Below, piece after piece: positions 16,608-19,847 of a DNA stretch of 53,368 nucleotides (positions within the stretch are counted from its first letter, which is position 1; each line of letters starts with the position of its first letter). Source of the DNA: an uncultured Bacilli bacterium (GTDB lineage Bacteria > Bacillota_I > Bacilli_A > RF39 > UBA660); NCBI GenBank assembly GCA_947581765.1, contig CANPVU010000009.1, positions 1-53,368 on the forward strand, read 5' to 3'. Under the pieces are notes generated by a model. The model saw nothing but the letters and a program-made list of their open reading frames with translations, was not told the DNA's origin and ran no database searches. Made by a program: the position numbers and the translations under genes.

Positions 16608-16663
16608 ATTCACAATGAAGAGAAGCTTTAAAGTTACATCTTTAAAAAATGGAGGTTTTTAAA

Positions 16664-17260
16664 ATGCCCTTAGCATATCCCTTAGTATATATCGATGAAA
16701 ATTTAAATAATATTATTCAAAATCCAGACAACGTTTTGTATTTAAGACCATATGATATAGGATGCAAGCGAGCATTATTTGCTATAGTTAAAGAAGATAA
16801 AGGAGTTTATAAGAAAGTTCAACTCACTAAAGAACAGTCTAATATGTCTTTTCCTTTTGAACCTATATATTGGTTCTATAATGGTCCGGGACATCGCCTT
16901 TTAAAAGATTTTATATCTTTTTATAACAAACTTGCTTTAAATACAACAAATTTAGATGGATTTAAGACTAAAACACTAGAAAATAAAATCTATAACGTTG
17001 GTGTATTTGCAACATTTAATGATGGTTCAGCAACTTTTGTTATACGAGAAAGTGAAAAAAAATTTGATAGAAAGGGTGGAATACAATCATACATAGATTT
17101 ATTAAAACAGTATAAAGAATATAATCCACAATATGATACTTATGAAATTATAGAATTTCATAGTGTTAATAATGATACCTTTATAATACCTGAACTTCAA
17201 AATAGAGTAGAAGAACGCTCAAAAGTAAAAAAACTAACAAGAAATAATAAGAGACTATAA
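16664..17260 (+). CDS. Hypothetical protein, 198 residues
   Basis: Not recognised. Soluble, basic C-terminus (KVKKLTRNNKRL). Visible stretches are LAYPLVYIDENLNNII at the start, PFEPIYWFYNGPGHRLLKDF near 65-84 and GVFATFNDGSATFVIRES near 110-127; the last looks like paired beta strands. ATG 16664 (MPLAYP) is chosen because GGAGGT lies 7 bp before it, while the earlier in-frame ATG at 16649 overlaps that site. Single-gene unit with promoter and terminator in an accessory region. Confidence 0.65.
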   Translation: MPLAYPLVYIDENLNNIIQNPDNVLYLRPYDIGCKRALFAIVKEDKGVYKKVQLTKEQSNMSFPFEPIYWFYNGPGHRLLKDFISFYNKLALNTTNLDGFKTKTLENKIYNVGVFATFNDGSATFVIRESEKKFDRKGGIQSYIDLLKQYKEYNPQYDTYEIIEFHSVNNDTFIIPELQNRVEERSKVKKLTRNNKRL

Positions 17261-17308
17261 AAAAGATGGTAATGAAAAAGTTTATTTATCAAAATCATCT
17301 TTTTTTTA
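17261..17308 (+). terminator. Rho-independent terminator
   Basis: AAAAGATG pairs with CATCTTTT; the long loop is partly structured and a T run follows. Confidence 0.6.
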
Positions 17309-17412
17309 GATTTTTTATTAACAAGTTGTACCACTTAAATTAAGTTTAATATTCATTGGAATATTTGATGTGAATGTCGTCCTCTGATCTTGAGAAAGAA
17401 AAGAGGGATACA

Positions 17413-17490
17413 ATGAAAAAAAGAACTTTTATTGTAAAAGCCCTTCGTCTTGTTGCTATCATTTTATTACCAATTTCTATTGTACTGTGA
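17413..17490 (+). CDS. Possible hydrophobic small peptide, 25 residues
   Basis: A frame after AGAGGGATACA encodes MKKRTFIVKALRLVAIILLP and five more residues: basic N-terminus followed by a short membrane helix. It lies directly upstream of a second 25-residue hydrophobic peptide, with the latter's -35 box inside this frame's end. It could be a second toxin, a decayed copy, or chance. Confidence 0.35.
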   Translation: MKKRTFIVKALRLVAIILLPISIVL

Positions 17491-17508
17491 ACTAATGTTT
17501 GATATAAT
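17480..17508 (+). promoter_or_regulatory. Promoter of the small membrane toxin
   Basis: TTGTAC (17480-17485), 17-bp spacer, TGA-TATAAT (17503-17508) with the extended TG. Transcription should begin near 17515, giving a leader of about 70 nt, long for this region. Confidence 0.7.
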
Positions 17509-17544
17509 ATTACTAGATACATTTGGAATATATCAGATGCTTTC

Positions 17545-17575
17545 CCTTTCTATTTATCAAAGGATAAAAGAAAGG
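17545..17575 (+). promoter_or_regulatory. 5' UTR hairpin masking the toxin ribosome site
   Basis: CCTTTCT-A-TTTATC pairs with GATAAAAGAAAGG around an AAAG loop: a 13-bp stem with one bulged A. The 3' arm contains the first half of the AAAGGTGGCGAT ribosome site of the toxin, so the mRNA as folded should be poorly translated. Confidence 0.7.
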
Positions 17576-17586
17576 TGGCGATACTT

Positions 17587-17664
17587 ATGACAAAAAGAGA
17601 ATTTTCTCAATTTATTATAATATTACTCCTATTCTTAGTCGTAATTATTTTACTTCTAAAATAG
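17587..17664 (+). CDS. Small membrane peptide, predicted type I toxin, 25 residues
   Basis: Encodes MTKREFSQFIIILLLFLVVI plus ILLLK: a charged head, one membrane helix and a terminal Lys, the build of Fst/TxpA/holin-like type I toxins that depolarise the membrane when unregulated. The ribosome site AAAGGTGGCGAT is strong but folded into a hairpin. Leader bases 17533-17541 (TCAGATGCT) are complementary to the left arm of the 3' hairpin (17669-17677), allowing fold-back inhibition. An antisense transcript appears to be encoded across the 3' end. No sequence family is claimed; toxicity is inferred from architecture. Confidence 0.55.
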   Translation: MTKREFSQFIIILLLFLVVIILLLK

Positions 17665-17668
17665 CAAA

Positions 17669-17704
17669 AGCATCTGATTTCAACATTTGTTGATTTCAGA
17701 TGCT
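17669..17704. terminator. Stem-loop at toxin 3' end and antisense terminator
   Basis: AGCATCTG/CAGATGCT with an inner CAACA/TTG pair forms a long stem. On the minus strand TTTTGCTATTTT follows, so it can terminate a leftward antisense RNA. On the plus strand it is the 3' structural hairpin whose left arm matches the toxin leader. Confidence 0.7.
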
Positions 17705-17713
17705 ATCCTAAAT

Positions 17714-17757
17714 AAGGGATTGCATTTGATTAGCCCAATCAAATGTATCCTTTTTTA
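17714..17757 (+). terminator. Terminator of the toxin mRNA
   Basis: AAGGGAT-TG-CATTTGATT pairs with AATCAAATG-T-ATCCTT across AGCCC, then a T run. It lies 10 bp after the first 3' stem-loop. Confidence 0.85.
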
Positions 17758-17784
17758 TTTTATGCAAGTTTCCTTGACATATTC

Positions 17785-17813
17785 ATAGTAACATAAAAAA
17801 GAACTTTTTACAA
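17785..17813 (-). promoter_or_regulatory. Candidate promoter of antisense RNA
   Basis: On the minus strand TTGTAA (17808-17813), 17-bp spacer, TGT-TACTAT (17785-17790) with extended TG. It overlaps the terminator of the tRNA transcript, so one signal may matter more than the other. Confidence 0.45.
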
Positions 17814-17818
17814 GTTCT
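17795..17818 (-). terminator. Terminator of the tRNA transcript
   Basis: On the minus strand AGAACTT / AAGTTCT with a 5-nt loop leads into six T. It lies about 40 bp after the tRNA-Leu 3' end. Confidence 0.75.
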
Positions 17819-17856
17819 CTATATTAAATTCGAAAAAGTTCGAACAGATTTGTTAC

Positions 17857-17941
17857 TGGTGCAAGTGAAGGGACTTGAACCCCCATGGATCACTCCGCTA
17901 GATCCTAAGTCTAGTGCGTCTGCCAATTTCGCCACACTTGC
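17857..17941 (-). tRNA. tRNA-Leu (anticodon UAG)
   Basis: 85 nt including an encoded CCA. Acceptor GCAAGTG/CACTTGC with discriminator A; anticodon stem CTAGA/TCTAG around CTTAGGA, so anticodon TAG (reads CUA/CUN); a long variable arm as expected of class II tRNA; T loop GGTTCAAGTCC. It is 3 bp from the tRNA-Ile2 gene and co-transcribed with it. Confidence 0.95.
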
Positions 17942-17944
17942 AAG

Positions 17945-18021
17945 TGGTGGATCTTGTAGGACTCGAACCTACGACCGCCCGGTTATGAGCCGGATGCTCT
18001 AACCAACTGAGCTAAAGATCC
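17945..18021 (-). tRNA. tRNA with CAU anticodon, probably tRNA-Ile2
   Basis: 77 nt with encoded CCA; acceptor GGATCTT/AAGATCC, D loop AGCTCAGTTGGTTAGAGC, anticodon loop CTCATAA, T arm GTAGGTTCGAGTCCTAC. The CAT anticodon means Met or lysidine-modified Ile (AUA). The body, notably the T arm and CTCATAA loop, matches my memory of Bacillus tRNA-Ile2 better than its elongator tRNA-Met, which would fit heavy AUA use here. The tRNA is certain; its amino acid is likely, not certain. Confidence 0.85.
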
Positions 18022-18170: not shown

Positions 18171-19847
18171 ATGGATAATAGTATTAAAAATTTGAAAATA
18201 AGTAAGGGTATAAAAAACTTTTTTAACAAGGTAAATAAAAAAGTAGTAGCACTTGCTACTACAGCAGCACTTTTAATAACTCCACTTGTTGGATGTGGCA
18301 ATAATGATAAAAAAGCTGCAGTTAATACTGATAGTACAGTAACAACAACTAATACAACAGAAACACCATCATTAAATTCGCAAGAAACAACTGATACAGC
18401 TTTAAATAATAATTCAGCTAATTCAGCATGGAATACTTTTGAAGAAAATGCTTGGAATACGGTTAAAGATAAAATAAATAATCCTAATAGAGATAGTTTT
18501 GATACAACTTTGTATATATTAAATAGTGATTATTTAAAAGCTACAAATGCACAAGTTTTATATGATTATTTTGATAGAAGTAATGGTATTGATATTGAAG
18601 ATGAGATGAATCAATCATATAATGTTTTATCTCAAATTCGTGAATATAATATTTCATTAACTGATAGTAATAACTTTTACTCTTTTAGAAATTTATTCAT
18701 GACTGCTAATGAAAAAGATTCTAAAGTTTTATCATATCTTGAAGATAGCGCACGAGAGATGTTAAATTTATCAAAGGTTGAAAATCCAACTCAAGAACAA
18801 ATTGATAGAGTAGAGAGTATATTTAATGAAGTTAAAGAATTTACTTTAGGAACAGGTAAAATTTTGGATGTTGCTGAAGTTGAATTATCTAAAGGTGCTA
18901 TATTTGCAGCTGAAAATATAATGCAAGATATCTCAGTTTCATCTAGAAATTATATTAGTGAAGAAAGAAGAAATGAAGTTGATTTAAGCTTAAATGCTCA
19001 TAATGTTCTATCTCAAATTGAAATAGATTGGGCATCTTTAAGTGGAGCAGCAGATGCATTAAATCCTCCAACTTCATTAGAAGGTGCAAGTAAGGTTAAA
19101 GATATGGTATTTAATCAACTTGGATTATTGAGTAAAGAAGTATCATTTATGGGAGTAACAGAAGAAGAGTCATTTGCACTTTATACAATAGCTAATATAG
19201 ATTATTTTGTAAAAGATTCTAATAATGTAGCTGTATTTAATACTTTTATGTATCCATCTGGATTTGATTTAACAAATACATTACATTTAGCAGAGAGTGC
19301 TGTTTCTAAAATTGAAATGTATAATATGAGTGTAACTGATTCTAGTAAATTATATAATTATGGACATTACTTTATTGAAAGTAAAGAAGATATTCTTTCT
19401 GTAGATGCTATCGTAAAAGAAGTACATACTCTTCATGTTGGTTCAGAAAATCAAGTAGAAGAATCAATAAAAAAATTGTTAGATTATTCTGCATATGCTA
19501 GTGAATCTTATATTACTGCACGTGTTGCTGTTTCTGATAAGGAATCAACAGGATATGAAGAAATCAAATTAGATAAAAATGCTTTAAATAAAGGTGGAGC
19601 ACAAGTAGTTAACTGGATTACATATTATGGATTGTTAAATAATAAGTCTAAAATTGATAATCAGGTTTACTCTGATATGATGGAATTAGTAGATGGTACT
19701 ACAACAATATCAGCTGTAGATGATGAGATAGCACTTATGATAGATGGTGTATGTGCTAGTAAAAATAGTGCTGTTTATGATTATCAAATGGGTGATAATG
19801 CATATGTTTACACTACACAACCATCAACATATTATTCGGAAAAATAG
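18171..19847 (+). CDS. Large lipoprotein, 558 residues, unknown function
   Basis: Exported and membrane-anchored, by its signal: an unusually long 25-residue basic N-region, then VVALATTAALLITPLVGC, with lipobox LVGC (Cys about 42). A Ser/Thr/Asn-rich linker of about 50 residues follows, then an acidic helical body (105-558) with two internally similar parts: YDYFDRSNGIDIEDEMNQSY...SQIREYNISLTDSNNFYSFR near 125-165 and FNTFMYPSGFDLTNTLHLAE...SKIEMYNMSVTDSSKLYNYG near 355-400, suggesting an ancient duplication. No family recognised. AGAGGGGATATA precedes the ATG. Strong own promoter and terminator. Confidence 0.82.
   Translation: MDNSIKNLKISKGIKNFFNKVNKKVVALATTAALLITPLVGCGNNDKKAAVNTDSTVTTTNTTETPSLNSQETTDTALNNNSANSAWNTFEENAWNTVKDKINNPNRDSFDTTLYILNSDYLKATNAQVLYDYFDRSNGIDIEDEMNQSYNVLSQIREYNISLTDSNNFYSFRNLFMTANEKDSKVLSYLEDSAREMLNLSKVENPTQEQIDRVESIFNEVKEFTLGTGKILDVAEVELSKGAIFAAENIMQDISVSSRNYISEERRNEVDLSLNAHNVLSQIEIDWASLSGAADALNPPTSLEGASKVKDMVFNQLGLLSKEVSFMGVTEEESFALYTIANIDYFVKDSNNVAVFNTFMYPSGFDLTNTLHLAESAVSKIEMYNMSVTDSSKLYNYGHYFIESKEDILSVDAIVKEVHTLHVGSENQVEESIKKLLDYSAYASESYITARVAVSDKESTGYEEIKLDKNALNKGGAQVVNWITYYGLLNNKSKIDNQVYSDMMELVDGTTTISAVDDEIALMIDGVCASKNSAVYDYQMGDNAYVYTTQPSTYYSEK

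Follow-up and report, generated by a model that had tools for sequence, protein, structure and literature searches.

The stretch of DNA analysed here, called the window below, comprises positions 1–53,368 of contig CANPVU010000009.1 of an uncultured Bacilli bacterium (assembly GCA_947581765.1), from a clade of the GTDB order RF39. Positions 17480–17818 of the window are one intact copy of a multi-copy cassette, which probably represents a new family of chromosomal type I toxin-antitoxin systems. A first-pass annotation of the window had called the place an undescribed type I toxin-antitoxin locus next to tRNA genes. This appears to be the best reading still, although the locus is larger than that annotation had it. 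The cassette consists of the following features (UTR, untranslated region).

17480–17508, plus strand: toxin promoter, read from the sequence; TTGTAC (17480–17485), 17-bp spacer, TATAAT (17503–17508)
17489–17501, plus strand: LexA-type operator GAACTAATGTTTG, between −35 and −10
17515–17757, plus strand: predicted toxin mRNA of about 240 nt, placed by the promoter, the T-tract 17751–17756 and the fold
17516–17526, plus strand: stem I 5' arm, partner 17739–17749
17532–17540, plus strand: stem II leader arm, partner 17722–17730, alternatively 17670–17678
17545–17575, plus strand: hairpin covering the Shine-Dalgarno sequence (17571–17578), from the fold and class alignments
17587–17664, plus strand: toxin frame of class B, 25 residues, stop included; the same peptide is in 7/178 copies, the window's included
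17722–17730, plus strand: stem II 3' UTR arm, partner 17532–17540
17739–17749, plus strand: stem I 3' arm, immediately ahead of the T-tract, partner 17516–17526
17664–17778, minus strand: predicted antitoxin RNA of about 115 nt, start near 17778, placed by promoter and terminator positions
17670–17703, minus strand: antitoxin terminator hairpin, then TTTT; in class B copies, 8/12 pairs are changed on both sides
17765–17776, minus strand: hairpin at the antitoxin 5' end, CAAG-GAAA-CTTG
17785–17813, minus strand: antitoxin promoter, TTGTAA (17813–17808), 17 bp, TG-T-TACTAT (17793–17785)
17800–17818, minus strand: terminator-like hairpin AGAACTT-GTAAA-AAGTTCT with a T-tract, overlapping the antitoxin −35

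Most elements of the first-pass annotation are found again on rereading. The toxin promoter has an extended −10 (TGA precedes the box at 17503–17508), and the predicted leader (17515–17586) comes to about 72 nt rather than 70. The 13-bp hairpin at 17545–17575, described as covering half of the ribosome site, is present in the minimum free energy (MFE) fold and covers AAAGG. The 25-residue membrane peptide begins with the ATG at 17587 and has a charged start and a long hydrophobic run. The two 3' stem-loops are possible. On the minus strand, the promoter with 17-bp spacing and the hairpin-T-tract terminator (17703–17670, then TTTT) are both recognized, and the antisense RNA between them is predicted at about 115 nt instead of about 110. 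Two features had been missed: the strongest pairing of the 5' and 3' ends (17516–17526 with 17739–17749) and the operator-like palindrome at 17489–17501.

Altogether, 185 copies of the cassette were gathered from the window, its relatives and records found by a DNA pattern. After duplicate removal 178 are distinct, 53 obtained by similarity to the window and 125 by the pattern. Peptides of five classes, 24–34 residues long and of membrane type, are carried by 116 of the 178 copies: 35 of class A, 30 of class B (the class of the window), 30 of class E, 11 of class D and 10 of class F. Two copies are unclassable. The class B frame of the window is MTKREFSQFIIILLLFLVVIILLLK (25 codons). The pooled ratio of nonsynonymous to synonymous substitution rates (dN/dS) is 0.21 for classes B and E, 0.42 for A, 0.46 for F and 0.49 for D, and in every class both shifted frames give higher values than the true frame. 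The Shine-Dalgarno site and the start codon are kept across copies. These data indicate that the class peptides are under purifying selection and that the frame is a gene; the window peptide (dN/dS 0.21) is a small hydrophobic membrane peptide under selection. It had been considered unlike known peptides, and peptide B has no Pfam match at E up to 10. The peptides of classes A, B, D and E remain below the curated cut-offs in Pfam and NCBIfam, with nothing notable in PADLOC and PHROGs.

The predicted mRNA (17515–17757) has an MFE of −74.1 kcal/mol (z −8.8), and 0/200 shuffles are as stable. For stem I, scored in 113 copies, the leader reaches 11.0 of 12 with its own 3' end, 9.5 with the 3' end of another class and 8.6 when shuffled. 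In 12 of these 113 copies (11 of class A, 1 of class E) the best stem I partner lies too far upstream for the mRNA start, and they were excluded later. For stem II, the corresponding values over 101 copies are 19.1, 13.4 and 11.0. The leader TCAGATGC had been proposed to pair with an arm of a 3' hairpin, GCATCTGA (17670–17677). This is the 5' arm of the antitoxin-terminator hairpin, and its pairing with the leader does beat the controls over the 101 copies (own 16.6, other class 11.7, shuffled 10.2). In the MFE fold, however, the leader (17532–17540) pairs with GCATTTGAT (17722–17730) instead and the arm at 17670 is engaged in a hairpin of its own, which makes the proposed pairing one of two alternatives. 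Since both stem II and the hairpin-arm pairing exceed their controls, the leader segment appears to have two mutually exclusive partners, as in a switch.

Comparison among copies supports these helices. RNAalifold unaided recovers both stems in class B, stem I in class E and stem II in class A. The cells paired in the named structures amount to 98.6% in B, 94.4% in E and 92.0% in A, and fall below 50% once the partner is slid by 1–3 columns. Doubly changed cells number 28, 37 and 39 in B, E and A, against 7, 10 and 15 in shuffles (0/500). Percentage paired, doubly changed cells and covariation score are all equalled by 0/500 shuffles in the three classes. The peptide and the RNA helices are both kept in relatives, with synonymous and compensatory changes; the first-pass annotation had named their lack of conservation as grounds for refutation, and it withstands this check. 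Taken together, the alignments indicate that the mRNA structure is under selection and that both helices change in compensation across copies.

The putative antisense RNA is also predicted to fold stably (17658–17775; z −4.5, 0/200 shuffles as stable). TTGNNA, a spacer of 17 bp and TG-T-TATNAT are conserved on the minus strand of the 178 copies, and the conservation stops at the −35. These promoter boxes lie outside the pattern by which copies were selected and are weaker in 24 diverged copies. The hairpin at the antitoxin 5' end is seen in 168/178 copies, a figure inflated because the selecting pattern fixes most of that hairpin; the fair figure is 19/24 among copies outside the pattern, in which the arms compensate each other (for example CAAG/CTTG and GAAG/CTTC). 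Because the leader sequence recurs in the antisense RNA, the two would compete for the 3' UTR. Duplex cleavage, described for TxpA/RatA in a review (PMC6562991), would thus have to bring about repression, and not blocking of the start site.

The hairpin at 17800–17818 is read as a terminator-like stop for transcripts arriving from the tRNA genes. Its stem has at least 6 bp in 39/53 tRNA-adjacent copies and in 29/77 other scorable copies. In the 130/178 scorable copies, such a hairpin at the −35 is found in 52%; exchanging arms from one copy to another lowers this to 13%.

The palindrome in the toxin promoter resembles the LexA consensus of Gram-positive bacteria. The box [GA]AACN4GTT[TC] is present in 46/101 toxin promoters, that of the window included, and in 31/10100 shuffled promoters; 40 of the 46 lie between the −35 and −10 boxes, 26–28 nt ahead of the mRNA start. 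TATAAT with at least 5/6 matches is found in 95/101 copies, 6–8 nt ahead of stem I. LexA is found in 18/18 genomes tested from the same family, and the box lies upstream of lexA in 18/18, whereas random windows of lexA/recA loci hold it in 82/1700. In the own genome the lexA box is AAACAAATGTTTG, and the LexA protein, 205 residues long, comprises a DNA-binding domain and an S24 peptidase domain. Because 46/101 toxin promoters share this palindrome with the upstream regions of lexA, SOS control of toxin promoters is suggested. As a further member of the regulon uvrB was rejected (box in 0/17). Among the 55 promoters lacking the palindrome a second promoter type is observed, with TTGTTCGCTTGTTTT near the −35, 60 nt upstream of copies of classes A, D and F (e.g., L084, L107, L142).

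The surroundings of the cassette contain these features.

17341–17470, plus strand: class A cassette remnant, leader and first 19–20 codons; homology to complete class A copies ends at 17468–17470
17413–17490, plus strand: class A frame cut short, 25 codons plus stop, against about 30 residues in complete peptides of this class
17857–17941, minus strand: tRNA-Leu(tag), 3' end towards the cassette, by tRNA gene call
17945–18021, minus strand: tRNA-Met, by tRNA gene call

The frame at 17413 had been thought to be possibly part of the system. This candidate second partner is rejected: it belongs to the 5' half of a cassette of a different class, which breaks off at 17470. The class A remnant lacks the 3' half and the antitoxin and abuts the class B copy; the junction is at 17470/17471, and from 17471 on the sequence is homologous to class B copies of two relatives. 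Upstream, 16649–17260 encodes a 203-residue protein without a Pfam match. Beside the tRNA genes, 18171–19847 encodes a large putative lipoprotein (558 residues), also without a Pfam match, a relative of which is at the same place in G003 (L204).

The cassette is situated directly behind the terminator of a tRNA gene, and at this same site sister species carry cassettes that encode different peptides. The tRNA-Leu site of the window holds class B in G002 (at a contig end), class E in G001, and no cassette in G003, G005, G006, G008, G009 and G011; G004, G007 and G010 yielded no such site. Since sister species hold class B, class E or none, cassettes seem to come, go and swap at one site. The own genome contains another cassette, of class E (L065, G000:C14:37979-38303), adjoining tRNA-Met, and thus harbours no fewer than two intact cassettes that differ in class. 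Overall, a tRNA gene is found within 300 nt downstream in 55/178 copies; all 55 tRNA genes are on the minus strand, they represent 15 anticodons, and 39 of them sit 104–110 nt past the end of stem I. At named loci of at least 3 kb, 39/123 copies are within 400 nt of a tRNA, compared with 458/5400 random positions. The tRNA neighbourhood of the cassettes thus appears not to be incidental. For copies without a tRNA (91 examined), the next downstream gene within 600 nt is on the minus strand in 55/70.

The window has a palindrome, ATTCGAAAAAGTTCGAAC (17828–17846), in the stretch that separates the terminator hairpin from the 3' end of the tRNA. A like palindrome, ACTCGAA..TTCGAGT, flanks many tRNA-adjacent copies on their downstream side and is also present at cassette-free sites in two sister species. 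It is possibly a recombination or processing element.

The family is widespread in relatives. A DNA search of 57 genomes (the own genome and relatives) gives matches in 31, several with ten or more. The DNA pattern of the downstream module is found in at least 117 stretches of metagenome-assembled genomes, in records titled uncultured Bacilli, Tenericutes, Firmicutes, Clostridia, Candidatus Ventrenecus and similar. Many of these are named for rabbit ('Lapin') samples and some for goat or deer gut. A passage of PMC8035907 names other genera of RF39, Ventrenecus not being among them. Among 145 genomes of the own family, one per genus, the antitoxin-promoter module is seen in at least 103 and the class B peptide in 41; the scoring of modules took at most six candidates per genome, and abundance is a lower bound. 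Class E is found in 74/146 genomes sampled from the order, and among the matches listed all are from the own family. Class B is found in 5/295 genomes sampled from the phylum, four of the own family and one weak (E 7e-4). One genome (G178) has ten diverged class B-like frames, perhaps a further subfamily. Many copies are observed at contig ends in G002, G006, G007, G020 and G028 (loci L033, L040, L042, L043, L045, L051, L059 and L061). Because repeats would break the assembly, the real number of copies is probably larger.

A phage or plasmid origin was rejected, as the cassette matched nothing in phage and plasmid collections. In viral contigs, the downstream-module pattern gave 0 hits, and none of the 324 class B and 170 class A pattern matches was confirmed in the peptide scans of these two classes. 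Membership of a known RNA family was rejected as well, since the tRNAs alone reach the Rfam gathering threshold; below it the matches are weak (best E 0.089, a snoRNA model) and are taken as chance. A literature search found the cassette family in no open-access paper, T1TAdb being outside that search. A 2025 paper (PMC12390103) lists Firmicutes and Tenericutes, beside Proteobacteria, as sources of type I systems, and for this reason a system of this kind is expected in this part of the tree.

The following course of action could be proposed. LexA or a similar repressor, to judge from the shared operator, would hold the promoter at 17480–17508 down, and DNA damage would release it. The mRNA of about 240 nt would fold shut through stem I, stem II and the local hairpin over the Shine-Dalgarno sequence; the pairing is conserved, and silencing is its presumable effect. 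The downstream promoter, conserved like the structure of its product, would give rise to the RNA of about 115 nt that is antisense to the 3' UTR of the toxin, and RNase III would cleave the resulting duplex, as in the TxpA/RatA and BsrG/SR4 systems. Messages escaping this fate would yield the 25-residue single-pass membrane peptide, which might disturb the membrane and stop growth.

Several points weigh against a toxin-antitoxin system of this design. Transcription of either RNA and toxicity of the peptide are predictions from sequence. In 60/178 copies there is no frame passing the frame rules, some of them at contig ends. The copies are related, so their counts are not independent. A simple consensus scan of 17300–17870 reported zero promoters and zero terminators. 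Two of five covariation measures are unexceptional in class E (107 and 460 of 500 shuffles) and class A (30 and 192 of 500), and the later counts favour the model because the 12 copies with a distant stem I partner had been dropped beforehand. In the folding model, trimming 40 nt off the 3' end raises the unpaired fraction of the 5' end from 0.02 to 0.46 (mean of 101 copies), but that of the Shine-Dalgarno site only from 0.16 to 0.17, and in the window it goes from 0.27 to 0.23. Exposure of the ribosome site by 3' trimming is rejected on this ground, and activation by trimming as in Hok is unsupported by folding alone, because the site stays closed. As to SOS control, 55/101 toxin promoters are without the LexA-type box, which precedes recA in only 8/16 genomes and uvrB in none of 17.

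It is conceivable, though tentative, that the cassettes form a modular system of the clade, in which toxin bodies are swapped on one chassis (SOS-type promoter, self-closing mRNA ends and 3' antisense RNA), the terminator of the upstream gene, tRNA or protein, doubles as the antitoxin −35, and cassettes recombine there. If the terminator doubles as −35, the supply of antitoxin would be tied to the transcription of the stable-RNA gene.

Rather doubtful, and compatible with a toxin-antitoxin cassette, is a purely selfish repeat, which is kept since its loss frees a stable toxin, spreads between terminators by recombination or an unknown transposition helper, and gives the host nothing. The multiplicity of copies, the exchange of classes at one tRNA site, the empty sites in sisters, the truncated copy beside an intact one and the many copies at contig ends would all fit, while the LexA-type operator points to regulation linked to the host. 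It is unlikely that the peptide is an SOS-induced small membrane regulator tuned by antisense RNA, such as a division inhibitor acting during DNA repair, and not a toxin for killing or arrest. YneA and SosA are SOS-induced division inhibitors in other Gram-positives, and the LexA-type box in 46/101 promoters and a short single-pass peptide under purifying selection are consistent with such a role. However, many copies per genome, five classes and patchy presence are odd for a housekeeping function, the peptides match no such family, and so tight a double lock on translation typifies toxins. A structured non-coding RNA or a tRNA-gene terminator complex with a fortuitous hydrophobic frame would explain the extreme folding z-score and the strong RNA covariation, but is very improbable given that in all five classes purifying selection is seen in the true frame when compared with shifted frames, that the Shine-Dalgarno site and start codon are maintained, and that 122/178 copies are not beside a tRNA.

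If the cassette is a type I toxin-antitoxin system, a large and little-studied group of gut bacteria harbours as many as a dozen or more RNA-controlled toxin copies per genome, and DNA damage could switch these membrane toxins on. It would join a closed 5'-3' mRNA (Hok, AapA) with a 3'-end antisense RNA (Bacillus), which so far are known apart. The five interchangeable peptides on one chassis are a natural series for asking what makes such a peptide toxic, and the many copies in one cell are a case for how antitoxins stay specific. The family also offers a clear test of whether tRNA terminators act as docking sites.

Comparison with known type I systems might shed light on the design of the cassette. 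In Fst/par of Enterococcus, direct repeats in the leader and antitoxin region pair with the antitoxin, and the two transcripts share a bidirectional terminator. The cassette resembles Fst in the convergent transcripts and the leader hairpin over the ribosome site. It differs in that the elements of its leader repeat the 3' UTR in inverted orientation and pair inside the mRNA itself, and in that the toxin T-tract is 48 nt beyond the antitoxin terminator hairpin. The antisense RNA of AapA/IsoA, from Helicobacter and relatives, lies on the 5' part of the toxin mRNA, whereas that of the cassette is predicted to be restricted to the 3' UTR, ending near 17664 (the stop codon), and the peptides are unrelated. 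The two are alike in a 5'-3' long-distance interaction conserved at several chromosomal copies, described for AapA in PMC6733600.

In Hok/Sok of enterobacteria, the mRNA is likewise shut by pairing of its 5' and 3' ends, according to PMC8167048; in the cassette this pairing is predicted and covarying. Unlike in Hok/Sok, peptide B has no Pfam match, the antisense RNA is at the 3' end, no mok-like coupled frame was noticed in the cassette, and 3' trimming does not open the translation site in the folding model. From the SOS-induced TisB/IstR-1 of E. coli, the cassette is distinguished by the overlap of its antitoxin with the toxin 3' UTR, by an unrelated peptide and by an operator of the Gram-positive type. 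A LexA-type operator in the toxin promoter is common to both at the motif level (for TisB, PMC8167048).

TxpA/RatA and BsrG/SR4 of Bacillus subtilis are similar in having the ribosome site in a short helix and a membrane peptide, as the review PMC6562991 describes. The antitoxin complementary to the 3' end of the toxin mRNA is also shared, being predicted here from the places of promoter and terminator. The cassette peptide is shorter than these and matches no sequence family (below cut-off in Pfam and NCBIfam), and the paired mRNA ends, the LexA-type box and the place behind terminators are peculiar to the cassette. The same review reports exchange of toxin types at the conserved bsrG/bsrE loci, to which the exchange of cassettes can be likened, and assigns long mRNAs activated by processing to Gram-negatives. 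By sequence, the cassette appears to belong to none of the TxpA/BsrG, Hok, AapA and TisB groups. By analogy, it perhaps works like a mix of TxpA/BsrG and Hok/AapA, with induction similar to that of TisB.
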